Source: Terriglobales bacterium (GTDB taxonomy: Bacteria; Acidobacteriota; Terriglobia; Terriglobales; Acidobacteriaceae). Taken from it: a stretch of DNA of 64,000 nucleotides. A model generated the notes under the pieces. It was given only the letters and a program-made list of their open reading frames with translations. It made no database searches and was not told where the DNA came from. Numbering within the stretch: the first letter of the stretch is position 1; each line of letters opens with the position of its first letter. The position numbers and the translations under genes were made by a program. Of the stretch, positions 38,435 to 43,788 are shown piece after piece. The stretch is taken from the NCBI GenBank assembly GCA_015655585.1, contig JAATEV010000018.1, positions 1 to 64,000 of the forward strand, read 5' to 3'.

Positions 38435-39595
38435 TTACAAGTGGTAGATGTGGTCGGCTCCCAGCACCAGCAGCAGAGTGATTGCCGCAATCGCAATCTC
38501 CCCCAGGGCGCCCACGATGAACGGACGCGCTCCCTGCTTGAACAGGTCTTTCAGGTTCGTCCGTAGGCCTACCCCGGCAAACGTCAGCAGGAAAGCCCAC
38601 CGGCTCAGATTTCCCAGAGCCAGCAACTGTGCCTTGTTGAAGCCCAGCGCGGCGATGCTCGGGTTGGTAGAAGAGCCCAGCGTGGCCAGCAACGAGATGA
38701 ACAGGAAGCCCAGCACAAACTTTGGAAACTTCTTCCACAGGAACGCGCCCTTGTTCTCAAGCTGTGCCGCAGCCTCCTGGCTCGCGAGTCCTTTGCGCGC
38801 CCACTGAATCGCATACGCCAGCACCACAAACCCGATCAGCGCATTCCGGCACGTCTTCGCCAGCACGGCAAACTTGCCCGCCGCGTCGGAGTACAACGCA
38901 CCCGCAGCCGTTGCCTCGGCCGTATTGTCCACGGCCAGCCCGGCCCACAGCCCATAGGCATGGTCGCTCATGTGCAGCACGTGCCCGATCACGGGAAACG
39001 CAAACAGCGAGATAGCTCCCAGCGCCAGAATCGCCGCAATCGCGGTAGAGGAATCTTCCTCATCCGCATCGATCGCGCCCTGCGTCGCAATAATCGCCGA
39101 AACACCGCACACGCTCGAACCTACCGCCAGCAGCGTAGTAAGCTGCGGCCCCAGGTTGAATGTCTTTCCCAGCCACGTCATAAACGTCAGCGAGAACGCG
39201 AAGGCGATAAAGACAAGAAGCAGCGAGATTCCGCCCAGCTTCAGAATGTCGCCCAGAATAAACCGTGCGCCCAGCAGGATAATGCCCGCCTTCAGCCAGA
39301 ACTCGTAGGTCGCCACACCTGCGCGAAAGATCTTCGGCAGTCCCACCGTATTGGCGATCAGGATGCCGAACAGAATCGCCCACAGTACATATTCAATGTT
39401 GGGCAGCACCAGGTGATTCGTCTTCCCGTACACGGAGATAAAGTGTTCGACGAACTTTCCCGCATAGCCGACCACGGCCAGCAGAGCGATGCCGGGCAGC
39501 AAGCCCAGCAGGGAAGAAGGCTCCTTGGGATCTGCTCCCGGAGCGTGCGGGGGATACTCTTTGCGAAGGTCAGGCAGTGAAGTCGATGAGGCCAT
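38435..39595 (-). CDS. YeiH-family putative sulfate exporter
   Basis: 386 residues, about ten transmembrane helices: LGLLPGIALLAVVGYAG, YVLWAILFGILIANTVG, and the family signature LLAVGSSVCGVSAIIAT. The family is named as putative sulfate exporters; the substrate is not proven. GGAG 7 nt before the ATG at 39595 fixes the start, and an in-frame extension overlaps the mini-protein in another frame. It follows the 35-residue membrane mini-protein by 32 nt, and both lie downstream of a Cys-ending leader peptide. This context supports a link to sulfur or cysteine state. Confidence 0.9.
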   Translation of the reverse strand: MASSTSLPDLRKEYPPHAPGADPKEPSSLLGLLPGIALLAVVGYAGKFVEHFISVYGKTNHLVLPNIEYVLWAILFGILIANTVGLPKIFRAGVATYEFWLKAGIILLGARFILGDILKLGGISLLLVFIAFAFSLTFMTWLGKTFNLGPQLTTLLAVGSSVCGVSAIIATQGAIDADEEDSSTAIAAILALGAISLFAFPVIGHVLHMSDHAYGLWAGLAVDNTAEATAAGALYSDAAGKFAVLAKTCRNALIGFVVLAYAIQWARKGLASQEAAAQLENKGAFLWKKFPKFVLGFLFISLLATLGSSTNPSIAALGFNKAQLLALGNLSRWAFLLTFAGVGLRTNLKDLFKQGARPFIVGALGEIAIAAITLLLVLGADHIYHL

Positions 39596-39627: not shown

Positions 39628-39735
39628 TTACCAGGGGACGGTCTTCAGCAGACCGATGCGGACAGCCGCTGCCAGCACAAGCGACAGCACAATGGCCCAG
39701 GTATCGGCAGAAAGACGAGGACGAGCGGTAGACAT
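39628..39735 (-). CDS. 35-residue single-helix membrane mini-protein
   Basis: Starts MSTARPRLSADTWAIVLS, continues as one hydrophobic helix (about residues 12-25), and ends LLKTVPW. AGGAG lies 9 nt before the ATG at 39735. It sits 32 nt before yeiH on the same strand and cannot belong to its frame. The helix and the KTVPW end recall the N-terminal segment of longer YeiH-type proteins (from memory), so it could be a split-off first helix acting as a subunit. Alternatively it is a regulatory membrane peptide. The ribosome site and position make it very likely real. Confidence 0.7.
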   Translation of the reverse strand: MSTARPRLSADTWAIVLSLVLAAAVRIGLLKTVPW

Positions 39736-39757
39736 GGGGGTGTTCTCCTGAATGCAG

Positions 39758-39785
39758 ATACATCCCTCCCAGAAGGGGGATATAT
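39758..39785 (-). promoter_or_regulatory. Leader hairpin before the mini-protein
   Basis: In the minus-strand RNA, AUAUAUCCC pairs with GGGAUGUAU (one wobble), with CC/GG extending the stem. It ends 9 nt before the AGGAG ribosome site and lies about 40 nt after the leader-peptide stop. No U-tract follows, so it is a candidate for ribosome-site control or an anti-structure rather than a terminator. Confidence 0.45.
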
Positions 39786-39825
39786 CGAGAATTTTTTTAG
39801 AAAAGGGGGTAAAGCAAGGAAGGAA

Positions 39826-39879
39826 TTAACAACAACAGGCTGTGAGGCGCATCAGCACGGATTGAAGACGGCCTGTCAT
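39826..39879 (-). CDS. 17-residue leader peptide ending in Cys-Cys-Cys
   Basis: MTGRLQSVLMRLTACCC then TAA. Three consecutive TGT codons stand right before the stop. The ATG is only about 2-3 nt from the expected transcription start set by a TATAAT box, so the peptide is probably read from a leaderless or nearly leaderless mRNA. Leader peptides with runs of Cys codons upstream of sulfur genes are known, in actinobacteria for example, as cysteine-responsive attenuators. Here the downstream genes are a mini-protein and a putative sulfate exporter. The reading is direct; the regulatory role is inferred. Confidence 0.65.
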   Translation of the reverse strand: MTGRLQSVLMRLTACCC

Positions 39880-39887
39880 GGTGGTCT

Positions 39888-39915
39888 ATTATACACAGCA
39901 AATCCCGCTTGCAAG
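39888..39915 (-). promoter_or_regulatory. Promoter of the leader-peptide / YeiH transcript
   Basis: Consensus TATAAT (39893-39888) with CTTGCA (39915-39910) 16 nt upstream on the minus strand. The expected start site near 39881 almost touches the leader-peptide ATG at 39879. Confidence 0.6.
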
Positions 39916-40733: not shown

Positions 40734-41753
40734 CTAATCCAGCTCCGGCACCGGCTCGGCATAGACATCCTGCTGCTGTTGCGCGATCTGCTGCTGCCTG
40801 CTCAAAGGCGGCGGTTGATCCGGAAGCTGTTGCGCCTTCTCCACCAGGATTGACCAGTCCTCCGGCACCGGCAACTGCTGGTCCAGCGAAGGAGTCCCCG
40901 AGCTTGGCGTCACCCTTACCGCCACCGTAAGCTCGCTGTCCGCGCGCCCGCGAAAGATTCCATGCGTCGGCGGCACATCCTCATAGTCTCTCCCAATCGC
41001 TGTGCGAATATGCCTGTCTCCCGCCACCAGCCAGTTCGTCGGGTCGAACCCCACCCATCCCAGCCGCGGAATCAACGCCTCCACCCATGCATGGGTCGCC
41101 GAGCTCACGGAACGGTCCATATCGCTCTCGCCATGGAATAGATATCCGCTCACATAGCGGCACGGAATCCGCAGCTTCGTGCGCACCAGCGCAATCATGA
41201 TGTGGGCAAAGTCCTGGCACACCCCTGCCTTCGTGCTCAACGCCAGATCGATCGGCGAGTCCACCTTCGTGGACTTCGGCTTGTAGTCGAAGTATTCATA
41301 GATCTGCTGATTCAGCTTGTGCAGCACCATCAGCGGATCGTCCCTGCGCCTGACGTCCAGCTCTTCCGCAAGCCTGTCCAGAGCTTCCGTAGGCCGGGCA
41401 AATTCGCTCGGTAGCAGCATCTCCCAATAGTCGCCCTGGTTCACCATCGCATCCAGATCGGCCCACGCGTCCGGAGCCAGAAACGCGGGCACCGGAGCCA
41501 CAGGCTGCATCTCCACCAGCGACTCAGCCACAATCACCAGTTGCCCATGCATCCCCGGAATATCGAAGTGGTGTACCTGGTTTGCCAGATGGTCCCGGTA
41601 GCTGAACACGCGACATCGCGGACTCACCGAGAGATGAAACGTCAGGCACCGCTGATTCTGATCGCTTCGCGGATGCATCCGCGTCTCCATCATGCTCTCG
41701 CTCACCGGATTGCTATAACGAAACTTCGTCAGATGGCGGATCGAGTAATACAT
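40734..41753 (-). CDS. Transglutaminase-like cysteine protease
   Basis: 339 residues: a bacterial transglutaminase N-terminal beta domain (YYSIRHLTKFRYSNPVSESMMETRMHP) followed by the papain-like core with Cys in KAGVCQDFAHIMI, His in ATHAWVEAL and Asp in GWVGFDPTN. AGGA 8 nt before the ATG at 41753 sets the start. It ends in a Gln-rich tail. Last gene of an operon with cpATP-grasp, alpha-E and acyltransferase genes; in many bacteria this trio without the acyltransferase forms a conserved unit of unproven peptide-modifying role. Confidence 0.92.
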   Translation of the reverse strand: MYYSIRHLTKFRYSNPVSESMMETRMHPRSDQNQRCLTFHLSVSPRCRVFSYRDHLANQVHHFDIPGMHGQLVIVAESLVEMQPVAPVPAFLAPDAWADLDAMVNQGDYWEMLLPSEFARPTEALDRLAEELDVRRRDDPLMVLHKLNQQIYEYFDYKPKSTKVDSPIDLALSTKAGVCQDFAHIMIALVRTKLRIPCRYVSGYLFHGESDMDRSVSSATHAWVEALIPRLGWVGFDPTNWLVAGDRHIRTAIGRDYEDVPPTHGIFRGRADSELTVAVRVTPSSGTPSLDQQLPVPEDWSILVEKAQQLPDQPPPLSRQQQIAQQQQDVYAEPVPELD

Positions 41754-41793
41754 CCCATATTCCTTTCGTGTCCGTCGCTGCGGATCGTCCTCG

Positions 41794-42801
41794 CTAAAAC
41801 GGCCATTGGAAGAGCCATCGCAGCCGCCACTTGTCCTGCCGATACCAAAGGATGGCCGGGGGAATCGTAGCCAGTAGCGTAGACACCAGCAACTGCGGCA
41901 AAACCGCCTTGCTATGGAACACCTTTGCCAGAATCTCGCGCCCCGCGCCCTGCCCGAACTCACTCAGCAGAAACACCGCCAGCGAAGCCTGTCCCATCCA
42001 CGCCATGAAGTCTCCCGGCGACTGCCCATCCAGCACTCTGGCGGCCAGCAGCAGCGCGGCCGTGCCCGTCAGTCCCAGCCCGATGTAGGTCCACTGCGTC
42101 GGTTGGCCAAAGAGGTAGATCATCGCCACCTGGAAGGCGGCCAGCAGTGCAAAGCCGAGTCCCGCTGTGACCACGCTTATCTGGTCGATCCAGTAGATCC
42201 TCTTTCCCACCCACATCCCCATCGCCAAAAAACAAAACTCCCGCACAGTCTGGTTCGTCAGCGGAGGTCCGGAGGGCAGCGTCATCCCTGCAATGGCAGC
42301 CAGTACAAAACGCAGCCAGTTCGGCATCTTCACCGTCAGCAGGGCAAGCATCAGGCAAAGGAACAGGACAAACAGAAACCAGCTAGCCTTCCCATCCAGA
42401 AGGTCCAGAAGGAATTGCTTCCACTCAAACGGATGCGCTCCGGAGCGGAAGCGCTCGACAAGAGGTTCGATGGCTGCGCCGATTACCGCAAACAGTGCAT
42501 ATGGATACAGAATCGTCTTCAGCTTTTCCGTCGTGAAGCGTGCGGCTCCGCGCTTCGCAATGCTCCCCGTCACGAACAATCCGGATACGAAAAAGAACGC
42601 GGGCATGTGGAAGCTGTAGATCAGGGTATTGATAAAGTGCGCCGAGGGTGTCGTCCACCACTCTCGATGAATCAGTCCCTGTGCCGTATGTCCATACGCA
42701 ACCAGGATGATGGCGATTCCTTTTACGATATCGACCACGTTCGAGCGCACGCCGCTTGTCACAGACTTCGTCGTCATCGGATTTTGTATTTGAGTATTCA
42801 T
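41794..42801 (-). CDS. Acyltransferase-3 family membrane protein
   Basis: 335 residues, about ten transmembrane helices. The start VVDIVKGIAIILVAYGHT carries the His conserved in O-acyltransferases of the OafA/WecH group, and SFHMPAFFFVSGLF follows in helix 2. It would transfer acetyl or another acyl group to a sugar or lipid across the membrane. Its ATG directly follows the alpha-E stop (zero-base gap), and the transglutaminase gene starts 40 nt after its stop, so it sits inside the operon. Its presence there is unusual. Confidence 0.88.
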   Translation of the reverse strand: MNTQIQNPMTTKSVTSGVRSNVVDIVKGIAIILVAYGHTAQGLIHREWWTTPSAHFINTLIYSFHMPAFFFVSGLFVTGSIAKRGAARFTTEKLKTILYPYALFAVIGAAIEPLVERFRSGAHPFEWKQFLLDLLDGKASWFLFVLFLCLMLALLTVKMPNWLRFVLAAIAGMTLPSGPPLTNQTVREFCFLAMGMWVGKRIYWIDQISVVTAGLGFALLAAFQVAMIYLFGQPTQWTYIGLGLTGTAALLLAARVLDGQSPGDFMAWMGQASLAVFLLSEFGQGAGREILAKVFHSKAVLPQLLVSTLLATIPPAILWYRQDKWRLRWLFQWPF

Positions 42802-43788
42802 CTATCCTGCCAGCGCCGCCTGAATCGCATAGTCCATATAAAGCGCATAGATCGTCTCGTGGATCGTCATGCACTGTTCCTGAATGCCTCTCAGGTAAGC
42901 CACCGCGTCCTGCGTCAGAATCTCTTCCGCGCTGCTGTAGCTCAGCGAGGCCTGTAGCCTTCCGCTCAACTTCCGCAACCCCTCCCCACGGCTTCGTCCG
43001 CCGTCGCCTTCGATCCTTTCAAGCGCACATTGCAGGCTGTCGATCGAGAACCGCACCGAATGCGGAAACTCCTCGTCCAGCAGAAGGAACTCGAAGATCC
43101 GGTCCGGCGTCAGGTCTGCCGTATACACCTTGCAGTACGCCTCAAACGCAGTAGCCGACCGCAGCAGCCCCATCCACTCCAGAAACTCATTGCCCTCGGT
43201 CGCGTGTTCATGCCGAGTCCACAGGTCCTCGTGATACGCCTCCAGCAGCAGCGTCGTCGCATACGCCCGCTCAATGTAGCGCCCCACCTGAATAAACTGC
43301 CAGCCCTCGCCGTGATTCATCGTCGAGTCCGTTACCCCCTGGAACTGGTGTACCGACTCCATCACCGACTGCAAAAAGTCGGAGGACTGCATCGTATCGT
43401 TCGCCGCCACGCCCGCCCGGTCCCTGTTCTTCAGTTCAGGCCGGGTCACCTGTAGATACATGCTGTTCAGCCTGTGCCACTGCTCCGTCGAGATCTGCTC
43501 CCTCACATGCCGCGAGTTCTCCCGCGCCGAAATCATGCACGACAGAATCGAGGACTTGTGTTCCCTGTCGAAGATCAGCGTCTGCGTCAGCGTATACGGA
43601 TCACCTTCCCATGCAATCCCCTTCGGCTTGCCCAGAGCCTGCAACACCCTCAGCCAGCGCCGTTCCGCACTCTCCGGCCCCTCATCCAGCATCAGGTTCA
43701 GATTCACATCCAGCAGCCGGGCCGTATGCTCCGCCCGCTCCAGATAACGGCTCATCCAATACAAACTATCCGCAACCCGGCTCAACAT
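42802..43788 (-). CDS. Alpha-E domain protein (DUF403)
   Basis: 328 residues, nearly all helical. MLSRVADSLYWMSRYLERAEHTARLLDVN is the classic opening of the family; VGRYIERAYATTLLLE repeats the RYxERA pattern. Biochemical function is unknown; it regularly accompanies circularly permuted ATP-grasp and transglutaminase-like proteins. It starts 13 nt after the ATP-grasp stop and ends flush with the acyltransferase ATG, so the genes are co-transcribed. Confidence 0.92.
   Translation of the reverse strand: MLSRVADSLYWMSRYLERAEHTARLLDVNLNLMLDEGPESAERRWLRVLQALGKPKGIAWEGDPYTLTQTLIFDREHKSSILSCMISARENSRHVREQISTEQWHRLNSMYLQVTRPELKNRDRAGVAANDTMQSSDFLQSVMESVHQFQGVTDSTMNHGEGWQFIQVGRYIERAYATTLLLEAYHEDLWTRHEHATEGNEFLEWMGLLRSATAFEAYCKVYTADLTPDRIFEFLLLDEEFPHSVRFSIDSLQCALERIEGDGGRSRGEGLRKLSGRLQASLSYSSAEEILTQDAVAYLRGIQEQCMTIHETIYALYMDYAIQAALAG

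Follow-up and report, generated by a model that had tools for sequence, protein, structure and literature searches.

Background

In the classical trp, his, and leu attenuators, a leader with control codons is followed by a terminator past its stop and by an antiterminator that makes use of the leader RNA. The tnaC leader of Escherichia coli is a Rho-dependent attenuator that works through ligand-induced arrest. Cysteine counterparts are the leaderless, polycysteine short ORFs of mycobacteria; their prediction goes back to Seliverstov et al. 2005 (PMC1262725), and they also appear in Shell et al. 2015 (PMC4633059), and are described by Canestrari et al. 2020, as cited in PMC9031893, PMC13236596, and PMC9094748. 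In the relevant parts of Seliverstov et al. 2005 (PMC1262725), the mycobacterial Cys leaders are without terminators, Rho is proposed, the prediction is termed rather weak, and tnaC is named as the analogue. For Acidobacteria and similar phyla, the corresponding part of one paper gives almost no predicted attenuator with an associated function (PMC2965389), and in that of another the acidobacterial leader genes are treated by their distance to the next gene (PMC4833913). No like Cys-leader system in acidobacteria was among the matches listed in the open literature; subscription papers may differ.

Here we describe a locus in a 64,000-nucleotide stretch of a Terriglobales genome (contig JAATEV010000018.1, positions 1 to 64,000), hereafter the window. 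The element in question is, with good confidence, a cysteine-responsive leader-peptide attenuator that drives a unit of a membrane mini-protein and a PF03601 transporter. An earlier note on this DNA could not place it in a described system. Its place, as far as the sections on mycobacteria in PMC1262725 and PMC4633059 allow the comparison, is beside the polycysteine leaders of actinobacteria: both have a Cys-rich ORF at or near the transcript 5′ end (predicted, in our case) with the Cys run near the stop, both have cysteine or sulfur genes downstream, and the window type, too, is without a terminator. Thus the kind is known, and what is new is the phylum, the architecture, and the targets. In contrast to the mycobacterial ORFs as presented there, acidobacterial sister operons have intrinsic terminators with predicted antiterminators, and among the genes behind the leaders are one for an outer-membrane transporter and the pair of mini-protein and PF03601 transporter. 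In soil acidobacteria, Cys-rich leader ORFs apparently let cysteine shortage switch on several sulfur genes through a pausing ribosome, which would provide an acidobacterial attenuator whose signal can be named and which serves more than one operon. The leader itself, its conservation, its bias toward Cys and TGT, the like leaders before other sulfur genes, and the sister terminators with their competing folds are all read from sequence.

Organization of the locus

The element runs on the minus strand from a promoter to the transporter gene (Table 1). The arrangement previously reported, with TATAAT, ATG, Cys peptide and stop, hairpin, ribosome site, 35-residue protein, and transporter in this order, is correct in both coordinates and reading. 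The view of the leader as near-leaderless and Cys-responsive is likewise supported, the ATG being 8 nt from TATAAT and the Cys run being beyond chance, although the response itself is a prediction. A standard promoter scan of the window reported none at the leader, because it requires a spacer of 16–18 nt and the spacer here is 15 nt. The last codons of the leader ORF are TGT-TGT-TGT, followed by TAA. No intrinsic terminator was seen between leader and gene in the window copy, and in relatives hairpins other than that of the window occupy a similar position, as judged by eye. At gathering thresholds, Rfam gave no RNA family near the leader element, its sole match in the window being a tRNA.

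Table 1. Features of the window locus and of a second Cys-leader locus in the same genome; functions are predicted
Feature	Position	Strand	Remark
-35-like TTGCAA	39909-39914	-	Consensus match only; 15 nt from -10
-10 TATAAT, perfect	39888-39893	-	8 nt to leader ATG, near-leaderless; like spacing in many relatives
Leader ORF MTGRLQSVLMRLTACCC and stop	39826-39879	-	17 codons; Cys codons 39829-39837, TAA stop 39826-39828
Pyrimidine-rich tract right behind leader stop	39800-39825	-	Candidate Rho loading site
Hairpin, no T-run	39758-39784	-	No conservation of its sequence in relatives, as judged by eye
Ribosome binding site CAGGAGAA of mini-protein	39743-39750	-	
35-aa single-helix mini-protein MSTARPRLSADTWAIVLSLVLAAAVRIGLLKTVPW and stop	39628-39735	-	One hydrophobic helix; pattern match
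PF03601 gene, putative sulfur-oxyanion transporter (YeiH-like)	38435-39595	-	Pfam
Leader of locus L194 (own genome, contig C25)	7516-7608	+	Cys leader with terminator
PF25183 beta-barrel gene of locus L194 (contig C25)	7711-11061	+	

The next gene downstream of the transporter encodes an SLBB polysaccharide-export protein and has the opposite orientation. Elsewhere in the window, the genes for an Alpha-E protein (PF04168), an acyltransferase 3, and a transglutaminase are consecutive on one strand (40734-43788, minus).

The proposed mechanism is as follows. The transcript would begin only a few bases away from the leader ATG, so that the first ribosome would translate MTGRLQSVLMRLTACCC at once. 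With ample Cys-tRNA, the ribosome would finish and depart, and expression of the downstream genes would be cut short. With scarce Cys-tRNA, it would be held at TGT-TGT-TGT beside the stop while RNA polymerase continued, and the genes would be ON at low cysteine. In the window's clade, which is without the terminator, the ribosome waiting at the stop would keep Rho from the C-rich stretch behind it. For the window copy, we infer the stalling, the direction of control, and the part of Rho.

Conservation of the leader

A search of 250 genomes from the window's family gave matches to the transporter in 81 (E ≤ 1e-20), and 81 of the 95 matched places were used, 14 fragments or distant matches being left out. 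A second set consisted of the best 80 of 140 relatives from genome contigs, by which the window is placed close to the genera Edaphobacter and Granulicella. The two sets share genomes and are not independent. The strict criterion was an upstream ORF of 15–40 codons with CCC or CC-x(1,2)-CC, and two and three loci, respectively, were dropped for short or identical upstream regions. By this criterion, a leader was detected at 52 of the 79 distinct loci of the first set, against 0/79 on the reverse strand and 0.3% in Markov shuffles, and at 29/77 loci of the second (best 80 of 140), against 1/77 and 0.4%. A loose criterion returned a Cys-rich micro-ORF at 61/81 loci, some of them evidently spurious, with 15/81 on the reverse strand and 13% of simulations (214/1620). 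The Cys run upstream of PF03601 transporter genes is therefore far beyond chance.

Comparison with relatives, which had been suggested as a check, showed that the Cys run and stop are largely kept while other codons drift; the hairpin sequence of the window, also named in that check, is not kept (by eye). Among the terminator-less leaders of the window type (type A), 28 of 41 distinct sequences end in CCC with at most one further codon before the stop, and the remaining peptide drifts. The share of TGT among leader Cys codons is 88% (127/145) in type A, 64% (114/177) in the terminator-type leaders of YeiH-like genes, 69% (46/67) in cysD leaders without a terminator, and 82% (56/68) in leaders of cysD and outer-membrane genes with one; in the PF03601 (YeiH-like) genes themselves it is 8% (17/217, not deduplicated). 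These data bear on the idea that the conserved element is an RNA or a chance ORF whose peptide is not translated. Some leader parts, such as the codons for ISGQRSFRT by our interpretation, do seem to serve as antiterminator RNA as well, but Cys runs recur amid unrelated flanking codons with start and stop kept, the leaders of different operons have little in common except their Cys content, and Cys persists while TGT and TGC are both used. An untranslated element is thus very improbable.

The leaders are not universal, being eroded or absent in a minority of loci. The strict scan gave no leader at 27 of the 79 loci of the first set, six of which have a weaker one by eye (L009, L010, L029, L058, L059, and L075). 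In the second set (best 80 of 140), with the operon leaders described below counted, a leader is present at 48 of the 77 named loci and missing at 29, and eight of the latter again have a weaker one by eye (L091, L093, L094, L099, L102, L107, L116, and L118). Eroded runs in near relatives consist of two Cys (L091 and L093), CRRR (L094), or CCRCR (L099), and further ones of CCR (L009/L102) or of CRCR with a GTG start (L010/L107); in the near relative L096, no Cys run was found. A -10 element ending 4–14 nt before the ATG was present in a fraction of 0.92 of the terminator-type YeiH leaders and of 1.00 and 0.89 in two cys sets, compared with 0.51 of those type A loci that gave any match (35/41), whose promoters match the consensus weakly.

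Cysteine-rich leaders before other sulfur genes

The module does not stand alone in its own genome, where Cys-rich leaders also precede an operon cysD-cysN-cysH-TauE (genes named from Pfam and order), an outer-membrane transporter gene, and the gene of a NirA-like reductase that is putatively a sulfite reductase. Within the window's genus, 19 of 21 cysD loci (PF01507) have an upstream Cys leader by reading, the exceptions being L167 and L183. The leader of the operon in the window's genome, MRISTANTVCRLCCSTCCCCPACPCGCACCR, contains 13 Cys and has a terminator 57 nt past its stop; in the folding analysis explained in the next section, it scored 0.74 with the ribosome stalled, 0.12 with the ribosome at the stop, and 0.57 in the shuffled control. 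Divergent from cysD is an outer-membrane beta-barrel gene with the leader MSIFSFNAMANACCPCCDKATAALTGNRTR, for which the values were 0.70, 0.23, and 0.46, respectively. Its possession of a Cys leader with terminator, beside cysD, hints that this PF25183 protein may take up a sulfur compound. Across the test set of cysD and outer-membrane genes, which includes some doubtful ORFs, a terminator follows 16 of 28 leaders, with means of 0.72 stalled, 0.28 at the stop, and 0.52 in the control. Among 30 loci of the beta-barrel family (44 matches) in this genome, convincing leaders are found at the cysD-divergent gene and at L201, and two more are doubtful. The L201 leader (contig C101), MMNILQQSMALFGLLPDAPRTGCCCCPCCR, spans -208 to -115 before the open frame and ends in GCCCCPCCR before its stop; like the window type, it gave no terminator.

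The NirA-like reductase of the same genome (contig C94) is preceded by MALPWMQIVGVCKMCCRDKVRRRLCPALELIS, with 0.66 stalled, 0.13 at the stop, and 0.32 in the control. In ten genomes, a leader is present at 8 of 10 loci of this putative sulfite-reductase group (L270 being doubtful), at 0/6 loci of a second NIR_SIR group, and at 0/5 loci of SulP genes. A T-run hairpin was detected after all seven leaders tested in the first group (7/7), and in L273, L276, and L277 the stalled value is hardly above the control. The NCBIfam NirA cut-off is passed by two members of the second group and not by two members of the first, which, together with siroheme-synthase neighbors in other genomes, suggests that the first group is the sulfite reductase.

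Terminators and competing folds in the sister leaders

Many sister leaders combine a near-leaderless ORF with a T-run hairpin 44–96 nt past the stop and an antiterminator that is favored when the ribosome stalls at Cys codons. Such hairpins follow Cys-rich leaders in the paralogue clade L064-L081 and on other branches, and a candidate was found at 27–28 of the 28 terminator-type YeiH loci, the automatic pick for L076 differing from the evident hairpin. In the folding analysis, transcripts were cut off within the loop of the terminator to mimic the RNA that the polymerase has made by then, and the probability that the 5′ arm of the terminator pairs upstream was compared between a stalled ribosome, a ribosome at the stop, and shuffled upstream RNA. 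For the terminator-type YeiH leaders (n = 28, some near-duplicates), the means were 0.74 stalled, 0.51 in the shuffled control, and 0.29 at the stop, the stalled value being the maximum over the Cys codons of each leader and hence biased upward relative to the control. At 18 of these loci, the value exceeded at least 95% of the locus's own shuffles, and at 10 it did not. In many of them, the later Cys codons overlap the upstream pairing strand. Equilibrium folds of complete leaders mostly favored the terminator at every ribosome position and did not discriminate, so that the switch is visible in co-transcriptional folds only.

The sister operons thus look like carriers of a classical terminator/antiterminator pair, and since the mean values favor the antiterminator at the Cys stall, low cysteine should mean ON. 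Many of them share the features of the trp, his, and leu attenuators; they differ in that the control amino acid is Cys, and the window copy differs further in being without a terminator.

In a tree of 103 transporter proteins, built with automatic and partly wrong leader labels and a midpoint root, a single group of 37 rows contains 23 of the 28 of type A, its remaining 14 being "none" by the strict scan, and terminator forms are spread over several other branches, including a well-separated one. On this tree, the labels require 27 changes, compared with 51.7 when shuffled, and none of 200 shuffles was as low (0/200). With the root at the midpoint, the terminator would have been lost in the window's clade. 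Five genomes (G130, G158, G201, G214, and G236) contain both type A and terminator-type PF03601 paralogues. Genomes that hold the sensor in both architectures make it possible to study directly how terminators are gained or lost.

Mode of action of the window type

Without a terminator, the window type calls for another mode of action, and two may be weighed. In translational attenuation, in the manner of mycobacteria, the ribosome site of the mini-protein would be paired with leader RNA until a stalled ribosome freed it. The window copy has no terminator, its pyrimidine tract could pair with a GGAG site, and mycobacterial Cys genes are described as translation-attenuated in the passage of PMC13236596 that concerns them. 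To this may be added the folds of 40 type A loci (L082 left out), in 5–7 of which masking of the leader raised the accessibility of the ribosome site by more than 0.1. The mean over the 40 loci, however, hardly rose, from 0.276 with the leader free to 0.305–0.322 with the leader and 0–30 nt past its stop masked, the shuffled controls having a mean of 0.262. Masking is the fairer test, because the stalled and free sequences of the first fold test were nearly identical by construction. Sequestration of the ribosome site was consequently rejected as a general feature of type A (mean 0.28 free, 0.31–0.32 masked, by folding), and translational attenuation appears unlikely in the window. By the same values, the earlier idea that stalling at Cys alters the folding of the leader finds little sign in the hairpin and ribosome site of the window type.

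Our best guess, at less than even chances, is Rho-dependent attenuation. In type A leaders as a group, the Cys codons adjoin the stop, and long pyrimidine runs follow. The tract after the stop has a C content of 0.37, a G content of 0.15, and a mean longest pyrimidine run of 8.5 in type A, compared with 0.34, 0.18, and 5.2 in the terminator-type YeiH leaders; the longest run is 9.4 in the terminator-less cysD leaders. The signal is weak, since the terminator-type cys leaders come close (C 0.38, G 0.12, longest run 7.8) and the C and G contents hardly differ. With the footprint assumed, a ribosome waiting at the first of the Cys codons extends just to the stop and masking of the tract would be partial, so that a stalled ribosome would hinder Rho by its position more than by covering the tract. 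Like the arrested ribosome of tnaC, one that waits at the stop would impede Rho on the pyrimidine-rich stretch behind; in contrast to tnaC, the signal would be a shortage of Cys-tRNA rather than ligand-induced arrest, and the role of Rho in the window is a prediction.

The transporter and its mini-protein

The transporter matches PF03601 with 255 bits (Pfam cut-off, 24.5) and TIGR00698, the NCBIfam YeiH subfamily, with 105.6 bits, below the cut-off of 232.6. Of the name "YeiH exporter" used in the earlier note, the family therefore holds, YeiH is a loose name, and the exporter role is putative. In Salmonella, YeiH protects against sulfite, according to the part of PMC12880088 that treats it. 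As far as that source permits a comparison, both are PF03601-type membrane proteins linked to sulfur, but the window protein falls below the TIGR00698 cut-off, has a separate helix encoded in front, and has no YeiE-like regulator among the window neighbors examined with Pfam.

The family annotation as putative sulfate exporter and the sulfite resistance from Salmonella YeiH (in the relevant part of PMC12880088) would agree with the opposite logic, in which a sulfur exporter is ON at plentiful cysteine or sulfite and the leader represses it at low cysteine. Yet the same leader class heads cysDNH and a reductase, the terminator/antiterminator folds predict ON at low cysteine, and a sulfite safety valve during assimilation would itself fit low-cysteine control; we consider the opposite logic quite improbable. 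Control by low cysteine would suit an importer, or a valve for sulfite while assimilation is under way, better than an exporter of surplus. In this way, the control logic constrains the role of a poorly known transporter. No clear complementarity between SulP and YeiH was seen, SulP being present in 16 of 22 genomes.

The membrane mini-protein noted before the transporter proved to be conserved, and at 153 of 161 YeiH-like loci a pattern located it immediately upstream of the transporter. Among the eight misses, L021 and L061 have one by eye, L027 and L127 offer hardly any sequence upstream, and the others are L122, L146, L156, and L160. In 125 distinct sequences, position -25 is D in 122, and the last residue is W in 116 and F in 9. 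It is plausible that the mini-protein represents the split-off first helix of the transporter. In 4 of 20 distinct outgroup PF03601 loci (L255, L258, L259, and L262), an in-frame N-terminal helix opens with DWLAV, DWWAI, or DWWAV, and this DW(L/W)A(V/I) start resembles the DTWAV of the mini-protein. Such in-frame helices, and the position of the mini-protein directly before the transporter at 153/161 loci, speak against the alternative that it is an independent regulator. In favor of the latter, a profile of the mini-protein had no match above the inclusion threshold in the 20 distinct outgroup loci, and its best match (E 0.15) was L251, a stand-alone ORF of 37 aa resembling the mini-protein. 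An independent regulator is possible, at rather less than even chances. In the HMM comparison, homology of the mini-protein with the fused outgroup helix fell below the threshold, and the likeness in motif alone remains. As a split-off helix, the mini-protein would be a testable missing subunit, of a kind that automatic annotation may skip.

A broader scenario is speculative and somewhat unlikely as a whole. The cysteine regulon of Acidobacteria would be controlled largely by leader peptides, with the terminator form being the older; the window's clade would have dropped the terminator and put its Cys codons at the stop, where the stalled ribosome would block Rho; and the PF03601 protein with its split helix would serve as a sulfur-oxyanion importer or sulfite valve at low cysteine, not as an exporter of surplus.

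Reductase-siroheme-YeiH operons

At 23 of the 80 named loci (best 80 of 140), the transporter lies behind a NIR_SIR reductase, and an upstream match to a siroheme methyltransferase was found at 21, of which 20 are shared with NIR_SIR (L126, L129, and L138 were checked with Pfam). In these operons, the strict scan gave no leader directly before the mini-protein (0/23) and a leader before the reductase at 5/23. A relaxed criterion (at least four Cys including CC), set after that result, gave 19/23, compared with 0 for the reverse strand and 6.5% for simulated sequences, the misses being L129, L144, L158, and L160. Most of these operon leaders have the form M..CCQMMCCPCACNAACRMTPISGQRSFRT followed by the stop, and a T-run hairpin lies past the stop in all of them (19/19). 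Their folds showed a modest contrast, with 0.73 stalled, 0.57 shuffled, and about 0.32 at the stop. Many acidobacteria of gp2 and related groups have retained the tail ISGQRSFRT (L126-L159, before NIR_SIR genes), whereas the Cys part of the leader is variable. The ISGQ codons seem to contain CUCUGGC, which, by our own interpretation, would pair with GCCAGAG in the terminator arm. Three acidobacterial-type loci, L118, L101, and L141, are on contigs titled Verrucomicrobia, Rhodanobacteraceae, and Betaproteobacteria, respectively, which are probably mislabeled bins.
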